NCBI GenBank assembly: GCA_015056245.1
Contig: SVGQ01000009.1
Location: 1 to 43,782, forward strand
Direction of reading: 5' to 3'
From: Clostridiales bacterium
GTDB lineage: Bacteria > Bacillota > Clostridia > Christensenellales > Aristaeellaceae
DNA: 43,782 nucleotides
The number at the start of each line of letters is the position of its first letter. The stretch's first letter is position 1. The notes under the pieces were generated by a model. It was not told the DNA's origin. It was given only the letters and a program-made list of their open reading frames with translations, and did no database searches. Made by a program: the position numbers and the translations under genes. Of the stretch, positions 1 to 27,736 are shown one piece after another.

Positions 1-203
1 TCGTCAAAAAACTCGCCTTTGGCGACTTTTTTGACGACTCATGCACCGTTTGCCTAGGAGCCTTCGGCTCCCCGGGCGGCAAACGGCGATAGGAATCCCT
101 TGCTACGCAAGGGTTCCGAAACCACCGTACACGCCGCTGGTTTCGGATTGGCAATCAGAGGGCTGCGGCCCTCCGATACCTCCAAGGCTTTTTCGACAGT
201 CTG
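1..203. mobile_element. Hairpin-rich intergenic element, probable left-truncated member of a dispersed family
   Basis: No gene is visible here; the segment is a chain of hairpins. They are 1-37 (17-bp stem, one mismatch, TTT loop), 46-86 (9-bp outer stem CCGTTTGCC/GGCAAACGG around GGAGCC-TTC-GGCTCC), 92-117, 117-145 (CGAAACCA/TGGTTTCG) and 158-173 (GAGGGC-TGCG-GCCCTC). The right end, TTTTTCGACAGTCTGAA at 189-205, is identical to 27235-27251, the right end of the better preserved element in this window. CTGGTTTCGGATTGG at 137-151 recurs exactly at 7876-7890. GTCAAAAAA at the left margin resembles the left end of the 27-kb element, so the true left boundary probably lies at or just before base 1. 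That the element is mobile is inference; the palindromes and shared words are seen directly. Confidence 0.55.
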
Positions 204-237
204 AAACCTGCGACAGACACTCTGTCACAGGTTTTTC
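203..237. terminator. Terminator-like hairpin abutting the left-edge element
   Basis: A 14-bp stem (204-217 with 221-234, one mismatch) has a CAC/CTG-type short loop and is followed rightward by TTTTT at 232-236. It lies directly past the stop codon of the leftward DUF3472-like gene, whose transcript would cross it from the other side; the T-run is better in the rightward direction. It touches the end of the repeat element just as the hairpin at 27250-27277 does. Confidence 0.55.
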
Positions 238-25190: not shown

Positions 25191-25218
25191 CCATACGGAA
25201 TCAGTTTTTTTCGACAGA

Positions 25219-25256
25219 CAAACGAGCATCCGGCGTACGGATGCTCGTTTGCTTAT
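25219..25256 (+). terminator. Intrinsic terminator of the symporter gene
   Basis: CAAACGAGCATCCG (25219-25232), loop GCGTA, perfect complement to 25251. It is preceded by TTTTTCGACAG (25207-25217), a word also found at 189-199 and 27235-27245, and its stem GAGCATCCG resembles the hairpins at 27059 and 27250. Confidence 0.85.
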
Positions 25257-26024: not shown

Positions 26025-26069
26025 GAAAGGTGATGAAACCCATATCACACAACAAAGGAGATGGACGCA

Positions 26070-27020
26070 ATGAAGAAACTGTTGGCATTCCTGCTGGCGG
26101 TCCTGCTGCTGGCAAGCGGTTTTGCTTGTGCCGAGGAAAGCGCACGCAAGACGGATTTCCCGGATAACACCTTCGTGGAGATGGATCCCAACTACATCAC
26201 CGGCGTTACCCAGCGGGGCAAGACCGTTCTGTTCCGCTATGATGCCCAGACCGAGAGTGGCGAGACCTACACCAAGAGCGCTCTGGTGTACGTGCCCTAT
26301 GGCTACGATGAGACTGATACCGCCACCCGCTACAACGTGCTGTACCTGATGCATGGTCATGGCGGCGGCTACACCACCTTCTTCAAGGGCGCGGGTTCCT
26401 TCTCCAACATGCAGTTTACGCTGGACGCCATGATTGAGAAAGGCCACATCGAGCCCCTACTGGTGGTGGCACCCACCTATATGGTACCCGGCAAGGACGA
26501 ATTCTGGTGCGCAGGGAATTTCTGGTATGAGCTGAACAATTACCTGATTCCCGCCTTTGAAAGCGCCTATCACACCTATGCCGAAGATGTGACCCCCGAA
26601 GCGATCCGCGCCTCCCGTACCCATCGTGCTTACAGCGGTTTTTCCATGGGTTCTGTTTCCTGCTGGGCCACCTTTGAGCACAGTCTGGATCAGATCGCCT
26701 ACTACATGCCCTGCTGCGGCGGCGCCAGCTTTGGCGGCGATGCGGCAGCAGCTGCTCAGAAGCTGGCAAACAGCGTCGCTCAGGCTGGCTACACCAAGGA
26801 TGATTTCTTCATCTATGCCGGTTGCGGCGGCGAAGGTGATGTGGGTTATCCGGGCATGACCGCCCAGGTGGAAGCCATGAAACTGCTGCCCGATACTTTC
26901 GTGTACTGCGAGAACTTCCGTGACGGCAACCTGTACTACACCCAGTGCAGCGGCGGTCACAGCACCAAGAGCGTGGAACTGATCATGTACTGCGCCCTGC
27001 CCACTTTCTTTGACAAGTAA
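26070..27020 (+). CDS. Secreted esterase of the feruloyl-esterase/EstD (alpha/beta hydrolase) type
   Basis: 316 residues. ATG 26070 is preferred because AAAGGAG directly abuts the earlier ATG at 26061. The N-terminus (MKKLLAFLLAVLLLASGFACA) is a signal peptide with cleavage probably before EES. VYVPYGYDETDTATRYNVLYLMHGHGG and the nucleophile elbow GFSMGS match PF00756 esterases. GGHSTKS near the end supplies the catalytic His. Such enzymes often release feruloyl or acetyl groups from plant xylans, fitting the glycosidases downstream. Six or more cysteines (CGGAS, CGGEG, CCGG, QCSGG) are unusual for an exported protein of an anaerobe. Confidence 0.9.
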   Translation: MKKLLAFLLAVLLLASGFACAEESARKTDFPDNTFVEMDPNYITGVTQRGKTVLFRYDAQTESGETYTKSALVYVPYGYDETDTATRYNVLYLMHGHGGGYTTFFKGAGSFSNMQFTLDAMIEKGHIEPLLVVAPTYMVPGKDEFWCAGNFWYELNNYLIPAFESAYHTYAEDVTPEAIRASRTHRAYSGFSMGSVSCWATFEHSLDQIAYYMPCCGGASFGGDAAAAAQKLANSVAQAGYTKDDFFIYAGCGGEGDVGYPGMTAQVEAMKLLPDTFVYCENFRDGNLYYTQCSGGHSTKSVELIMYCALPTFFDK

Positions 27021-27058
27021 TCAAGGCTGATGGGGCTGCCCCGCAGTGAGAGACAAAC

Positions 27059-27277
27059 AAGCATCCGGTGAACGTACCGGATGCTTTAGGTTGTCAAAAA
27101 AGGGGAAGGTGCAGGAAACTCAGTTTCCTGCCGGGTGTGGGCAGAGCCCACAAAACCTTGCGCCGCAGCGCTTTTCAGCAAGCACAGCGAGCACTGTAGG
27201 TGCAAGATGTGCGACTTTTGAACAGAAGTATGGGTTTTTCGACAGTCTGAAGCATCCGGTGAACGTACCGGATGCTT
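27059..27277. repeat. Two identical 28-bp hairpins flanking a 163-bp insert
   Basis: 27059-27086 and 27250-27277 are identical and each folds as AAGCATCCGGT-GAACGT-ACCGGATGCTT. The left copy is preceded by ACAAAC (27053-27058) and the right copy is followed by GTTTGT (27278-27283), which are complementary. Joined without the insert they form one terminator with a 17-bp stem and a T-rich tail. The pattern is that expected if the insert entered a single terminator and its core was duplicated. Confidence 0.85.
27087..27249. mobile_element. MITE-like non-coding element inserted in a terminator
   Basis: 163 bp with no reading frame of note. The ends TAGGTTGTCAAAAAAGGG and GGGTTTTTCGACAGTCTG form imperfect inverted repeats around a TGTCRAAAAA core. 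Inside are perfect palindromes at 27108-27132 (GCAGGAAACT-C-AGTTTCCTGC) and 27136-27152 (TGTGGGC-AGA-GCCCACA). A stretch at 27156-27213 matches 7942-8000 in reverse complement. It encodes no transposase, so mobility would depend on an enzyme supplied elsewhere. That it is mobile is inferred from the ends and the duplicated flanks. Confidence 0.6.
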
Positions 27278-27283
27278 GTTTGT

Positions 27284-27736
27284 TTATAATTCTTTGACAT
27301 ACAGACGGTCCGTTCCATTTCCATAGTTCACGATATCTTTCACATAGTGGTAGCCGTATTTTTCGTATAAACCTATGTGGTCTGTCGGAATATAGGTATT
27401 CATAAATCCGATCGCTTTGGCATATTGATTGGCAAACTCGATGAGTTTTTCGCTGATTCTGTTGCCACGATACTCTTCGCTTACAAACAAAGTTGATATC
27501 CAGGGAAAGATCTCTGGCAATGGGTAATAGTCCGTTTTCATGATCGTCACCATTCCAACAATTCGTCCATTCACGATAGCTGCAAATGGCGTCTCCCACT
27601 CTTCGAACTCCCAATTCTGAAGCAACCTCACCGTATGTTCCTTTACATCCATCCAAGAAAAGTTCTCCACAAAGCGCAGTAAGTCATCTGCCAGCGGAGT
27701 GCCCTTATCGACTTTTTGAAGTTCTATTGCTTCCAT
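27284..27736 (-). CDS. GNAT family N-acetyltransferase
   Basis: 150 residues with AAAGG before the ATG at 27734-27736. TLFVSEEYRGNRISEKLIEFA is the acetyl-CoA binding region (R-G-N-R-I variant of RxxGxG/A), and LYEKYGYHYVKDIVNYG the typical end. Substrate unknown. Its stop codon touches the right flank of the duplicated terminator. Base composition is AT-rich relative to the adjacent operon, similar to the HAD gene at 25.3 kb. Confidence 0.88.
   Translation of the reverse strand: MEAIELQKVDKGTPLADDLLRFVENFSWMDVKEHTVRLLQNWEFEEWETPFAAIVNGRIVGMVTIMKTDYYPLPEIFPWISTLFVSEEYRGNRISEKLIEFANQYAKAIGFMNTYIPTDHIGLYEKYGYHYVKDIVNYGNGTDRLYVKEL

Follow-up and report, generated by a model that had tools for sequence, protein, structure and literature searches.

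The feature under study lies in the window, the whole 43,782-nucleotide stretch analysed here, between two convergent genes: an upstream gene on the plus strand (26061..27020), whose 319-aa product matches no Pfam family at E ≤ 0.001, and a GNAT acetyltransferase gene on the minus strand (27284..27736). In the intergenic region, AAGCATCCGGTGAACGTACCGGATGCTT is present twice on the plus strand, at 27059-27086 and 27250-27277, and the two 28-bp hairpin copies are 100% identical and spaced by 191 bp from start to start. They are flanked on the plus strand by ACAAAC (27053-27058) and GTTTGT (27278-27283), which are complementary to each other and constitute the A-rich and the T-rich outer arms of the original terminator. 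Setting aside the insert and one hairpin copy leaves a single stem of 17 pairs, by direct reading, with a T-rich tail. The 163-bp insert (27087..27249, plus strand) has no room for a transposase gene and is annotated as a non-autonomous MITE, based on its copies in the own genome and on their common ends. These ends are imperfect inverted repeats, TAGGTTGTCAAAAAA on the left (27087..27101, plus strand; starting with CAG in most copies) and CAGACTGTCGAAAAA on the right (27235..27249, read on the other, minus, strand), recognised both by reading and by matches to the end consensus described below. The original prediction had listed these components, namely two identical 28-bp hairpins around a 163-bp insert, complementary ACAAAC and GTTTGT, a terminator with a 17-bp stem and a T-rich tail rebuilt by removal of the insert, and imperfect inverted ends, and all of them were borne out.

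A terminator scan of positions 26900-27500 returned two terminator-like sites, one per strand, where 0.5 would be expected. The plus strand is served by the right hairpin copy, with the tail GTTTGTTTAT, and the minus strand by the left copy, with the tail GTTTGTCTCT, so that what was one bidirectional terminator seems now to be two, one for each convergent gene. In this copy the complementary arms run six pairs past the duplication, indicating that the boundary is not always placed at the outermost pair. An Rfam search with 551 bases around the element returned no family at the gathering score, the sole match at E ≤ 1 being a weak one to nrdJ. Within the element, the pairing of an internal hairpin, GCAGGAAACTCAGTTTCCTGC (27111-27131), is kept through two-sided base changes in related copies; such changes were found at 4 pairs among 29 non-redundant copies, in counts that are inflated by the kinship of the copies. 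Since pairing is kept despite these two-sided changes, the data suggest that the folded form of the element matters.

The window also holds a second element of the group at its very beginning (1..203, plus strand), with another interior and the same right end, terminating in ...TTTTTCGACAGTCTG and adjoined by a hairpin (204..234, plus strand). This element is cut by the contig start, and would be about four bases short if it belongs to the 207-bp class. Many contigs of the own genome terminate inside elements of this group. In addition, TTTTTTTCGACAGAC is located immediately before a single stem-loop at 25205-25250, after a Na/Ala symporter gene; it looks like the remnant of the right end of an element of this group, a similarity that may be due to chance.

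Hairpin duplications around a family of short elements

The own genome, G000, is represented by an assembly of 189 contigs that is 81% complete. It carries at least 40 copies of the element (40 among at least 44 matches to the query, with 40 of 141 first-look candidates scored), and the end consensus CAGRYTGTCRAAAAA matches it 86 times, as compared with 0 matches for the pattern read backwards. A paired-end search of the fetched stretches of this genome yielded 47 candidate end pairs, five of which were alternative pairings of the same copies, leaving 42 rows that represent 41 elements, L014 filling two rows. Ends are common to all rows, of which 27 measure 162-164 bp, ten 206-207 bp and five 271-308 bp, and the 22 distinct copies that were aligned display a median pairwise identity of 0.96, with a minimum of 0.83. 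The elements are short and non-coding, bear terminal inverted repeats and occur in many near-identical copies, as MITEs do; an autonomous element of the same genome with common ends, a further mark of MITEs, was not found in G000 at 81% completeness. The 163-bp class exhibits no orientation bias relative to the T-tract (12 right, 10 left, 4 ties).

Direct repeats, 15-47 bp long (median 29), are present on either side of 38 of the 41 elements with both ends recognised; duplicated hairpins around other copies are what the original prediction had named as support for its reading. The duplicated sequence is different at each site, and no common target sequence is apparent by eye. Duplication scores range from 11 to 47 at the 38 sites, whereas 1,500 random point pairs, which were free to fall on real copies, gave a 99th percentile of 3 and a maximum of 20. 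Since the same arrangement recurs at all these sites, with another hairpin each time, the hairpin arrangement around the element is far beyond chance. To examine pairing, the 38 target sites were rebuilt by scripted joining of the flanks; an earlier symmetry score was dropped, its random control being nearly as high, and a simple end-pairing test was used instead. In register, pairing (G-T allowed) between the nine outermost positions at either end of the duplication amounts to 0.79, and this value falls to 0.28-0.45 when the boundaries are slid by 1-6 bp; pairing is 0.24-0.55 outside the boundary and mostly 0.7-0.87 inside it. At least 7 of the 9 pairs are formed at 27 of the 38 sites, versus 2.1% of 38,000 random windows. 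As pairing drops on sliding, we conclude that the two joints lie opposite each other in the stem, with a spacing that varies with the stem-loop.

The duplication is absent at three of the 41 elements, L045, L109 and L113, exceptions that count against the pattern. L109 carries on its left the hairpin that L113 has on its right, indicating recombination or replicative transposition, by which these two elements seem to have swapped their hairpin partners. Two BLAST copies outside the 41-element count, L020 and L026, are each accompanied by a single hairpin, on one side, and have one degraded end, without the inverted repeat. At 31 loci, a one-sided end lies at a contig end: 13 of them were matched by their hairpin (score ≥19), making 7 contig-end pairs, and the remaining 18 had no partner among the contig ends fetched, two weaker matches (L029-L057 and L042-L105) being found among these.

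At one copy, L004, the element and its two hairpins are bordered by genes for a HAD-type hydrolase and an RlmL-type methyltransferase, and this locus is empty in two genomes of the same genus. In G001, the flanks are side by side with a 34-bp overlap, with one closely similar hairpin and no element; in G011, about 90 bp of a single contig separate them, an interval with one hairpin of other sequence and no element. At the window locus, none of 15 named relatives has an element end within the 330 bases that follow the upstream gene. These 15, the closest relatives of the upstream gene (61-90% identity over the best segment), are Clostridia MAGs which, when a source is given in the title, come from sheep, goat or water deer gut. 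By eye, a single terminator is seen in most of them, with a sequence that varies, as do the genes downstream; the upstream gene is also present in four genomes of the genus, and the three that were inspected give the same picture. Because of these differences the window locus provides a weak empty-site test, and the L004 locus was used for this purpose. An empty site with one hairpin, which the original prediction had called for, is thus found at L004, whereas the window locus offers relatives that lack the element but whose terminators are of different sequence.

Element matches were detected in 11 of 60 genomes, the own one included: nine of the 16 other genomes of the genus, where several of the matches are fragments, and one marginal match outside the genus. 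In two genomes of the genus, G014 and G002, long duplications are present at the element ends of 18/20 and 15/20 loci, respectively (33/40 together), each locus being counted at ≥17 bases of about 90% identity and array loci getting their repeat from the neighbouring unit. A scripted tally of the G014/G002 set gave a duplication score of at least 12 at 39 of the 60 places tested, with 15 of these 39 obeying the pairing rule; this tally is lower because boundaries float and because several places are second, partial BLAST hits. Tandem (hairpin-element) arrays are found in G014 at L248, L254 and L262, with 4.1 copies at a period of 189 bp in L248:267-1050. The other copies with duplicated hairpins of their own, the empty sites of L004 and the duplications in two more genomes of the genus support what had been proposed for the window copy, an insertion into a terminator with a long target duplication.

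Autonomous relatives and the IS1182-type transposase

No match to PF13751, PF05598 or the G002-type transposase was found in the 81% complete assembly of G000, which counts against movement by such an enzyme; given this completeness, the transposase partner may be missing from the assembly or lost. G002 encodes an IS1182-type transposase in two frames, bounded by the ends CAGACTGTCAAAGAA and CAGTCTGTCAAAAAA, and these frames match NF033551 with 222.8 and 91.5 bits (cut-off 270) as well as PF05598/PF13751. A larger segment of this genome, L092:446-3048, has like ends, with a copy of the same 40-bp hairpin on either side. It holds the broken transposase together with some 1.1 kb of additional DNA, in which a 191-aa frame is found, and looks like a composite or cargo-carrying form.

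The transposase was sought in 297 genomes of the order, 8 of which gave matches at E ≤ 1e-20, in 391 genomes of the class, with 14 at E ≤ 1e-60, and in plasmids (277 records, of which four were examined). Twelve autonomous-type elements, including the G002 one, had both ends recognised, these ends being of the CAG..TGTC.AAAAA type; the remaining order and class loci, with one such end or none, were left out of this set. A stem (score ≥7) adjoins 21 of the 24 ends, versus 8.6% of random positions. The same hairpin is found on both sides of six of the 12 elements (L127, L133, L176, L179, L190 and L198), one of them carried by plasmid NZ_CP082921.1 of Sutcliffiella horikoshii. In the six others the hairpins at the two ends differ, which counts against simple insertion, as they do in a thirteenth element, on a Thermocaproicibacter plasmid and outside the 12-element script; differing hairpins would be produced by replicative transposition, and are expected from cointegrates, adjacent deletions or recombination between copies. 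Five intact transposases exceed the NF033551 cut-off of 270 bits (L176, 411; L179, 417; L190, 386; L198, 477; L197, 483), and four of the five corresponding elements have the same hairpin on both sides, the exception being L197. The broken transposase genes of L092, L124, L127 and L133 match NF033551 below the cut-off. At L190 (G359:C44), the second hairpin fits better as an inverted copy, with a loop of GA versus TC.

The like-ended elements thus encode an NF033551 transposase, as members of the IS1182 family do, and their terminal repeats are common to them and to the 163-bp element, which itself has no transposase gene and is at most a derivative of this family. Other IS1182 transposases of the genus, L090 and L091, are without CAG-type ends, and ends of this type are therefore confined to a subgroup of the family. 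Around L090, another inverted pair is present, with no obvious hairpin duplication by eye. Compared with the earlier reading of the window copy, two features are added: the dependence of the duplication length (15-47 bp) on the hairpin, and the assignment of the transposase to the IS1182 family.

Proposed insertion at hairpin feet and competing explanations

We consider it very probable that the element is a MITE which owes its mobility to an IS1182-type transposase and is joined by it at the two feet of a hairpin. The ends of the MITE would belong to the IS1182-family subgroup defined above, a DDE transposase would be supplied in trans, and the targets would be stem-loops, often intrinsic terminators, whatever their sequence. 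The target would be extruded, either as a cruciform or in the form of single-strand hairpins, and on each strand the DDE transposase would connect one 3' end of the element with the 5' foot of the hairpin; repair of the two single-stranded hairpins by gap filling would then leave the stem-loop duplicated. Since terminators between convergent genes are bidirectional, insertion would turn each into two, one facing each gene. As such a division would come at little cost to the host, a high copy number could be reached.

The symmetric boundaries would follow as well if a transposase dimer read the palindrome as ordinary duplex DNA and made a very long staggered cut, with no cruciform or single-strand hairpin involved. 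We regard this explanation as unlikely, in view of targets that have no common sequence by eye and of joints spaced by anything from 15 to 47 bp, a range that is hard to accommodate for a dimer of fixed geometry. The original prediction had offered another alternative, the capture of the segment by unequal homologous recombination between two terminator copies. The swapped hairpins of L109 and L113 do indicate that recombination between copies, or replicative transposition, occurs, but the same 163 bp lie between dozens of different and unrelated hairpins, single-hairpin empty sites exist and the element ends are constant, so that recombination is highly improbable as the general origin.

That the hairpins travel with the element, as its part rather than its target, would be in line with the (hairpin-element)n arrays of G014 such as L248; however, each locus has a hairpin sequence of its own and the G001 empty site displays a closely similar single hairpin without any element, observations that contradict it for the own genome, and we give this possibility practically no credence. 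Group IIC introns, which insert at terminators beside the hairpin by retrohoming and without duplicating it, and REP/RAYT systems also favour terminators or palindromes, raising the question of whether such a system, or another hairpin-guided one, might act here in place of a DDE transposase. This is very doubtful: the 551 bases searched gave no group II intron match in Rfam at E ≤ 1, IS1182 transposase genes are found between ends of this kind, and we know of no such terminal repeats and no target duplication in group II introns or REP elements.

Insertion at the feet of a hairpin by an IS1182-type transposase can be extended, with somewhat better than even confidence, to the whole widespread IS1182 subgroup with CAG..TGTC.AAAAA ends. 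This subgroup would be structure-guided, joining at the 5' feet of an extruded hairpin and duplicating one stem-loop of any length; each bidirectional terminator would become two one-directional ones, providing targets that are nearly cost-free and self-renewing. A further insertion into an already duplicated hairpin would give rise to arrays.

Relation to known elements and significance

ISfinder reportedly gives direct repeats of 0-60 bp for IS1182, a range that suggests its curators may have met long duplications. Hairpin targeting by IS1182 elements is already known, and whole-hairpin duplication is a new variant of it. According to the available portion of Wan et al. (PMC5678879), IS1272 replaces the stem-loop without target duplication, some IS1182-family members are cited as targeting palindromes, and duplication of the whole stem-loop figures only as a possible pathway (pathway b, Fig 13 legend and text). 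Terminator hairpins are deleted by IS1272 and TnSha1, as stated in the accessible part of PMC4923244. The present elements resemble these two, as far as both texts describe them, in their transposase family (via the autonomous relatives), in their stem-loop or terminator targets without sequence preference, which are palindromes as for some IS1182-family members, and in their terminal inverted repeats. By contrast, the stem-loop that is deleted or replaced by IS1272 and TnSha1, neither of which produces a target duplication, is here kept and duplicated, as attested by the 38 duplications among 41 elements and by the empty sites of G001 and G011. ISPse1 of Paracoccus has the same IS1182 family assignment and differs by an apparent 4-bp direct repeat, the figure 4 standing in what seems to be the direct-repeat column of the available part of PMC3281130. 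Because IS1272 replaces its target and ISPse1 apparently duplicates 4 bp, the IS1182 family holds several insertion outcomes, the present subgroup being one that duplicates the stem-loop. Like the bacterial MITEs described in the accessible text of a review (PMC10969869), the elements are short, non-coding and intergenic, with inverted ends and many copies; that text names no MITE that duplicates a terminator hairpin, and the term IS1182 is absent from it. In the titles and abstract beginnings of the literature surveyed, whole-hairpin duplication as a rule was not reported.

The 38 natural sites in one genome and the empty sites in two relatives provide direct evidence for an outcome that had been no more than a possible pathway in the work on IS1272. 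With most DDE transposases, the target duplication comprises a few bases and is constant in length; here, target secondary structure determines how long it is. Since a complete hairpin copy is left on each side, each of the two adjacent genes probably retains a functional terminator, suggesting a way for a transposon to enter terminators without breaking gene ends. The subgroup offers a sequence-independent, structure-directed insertion activity.
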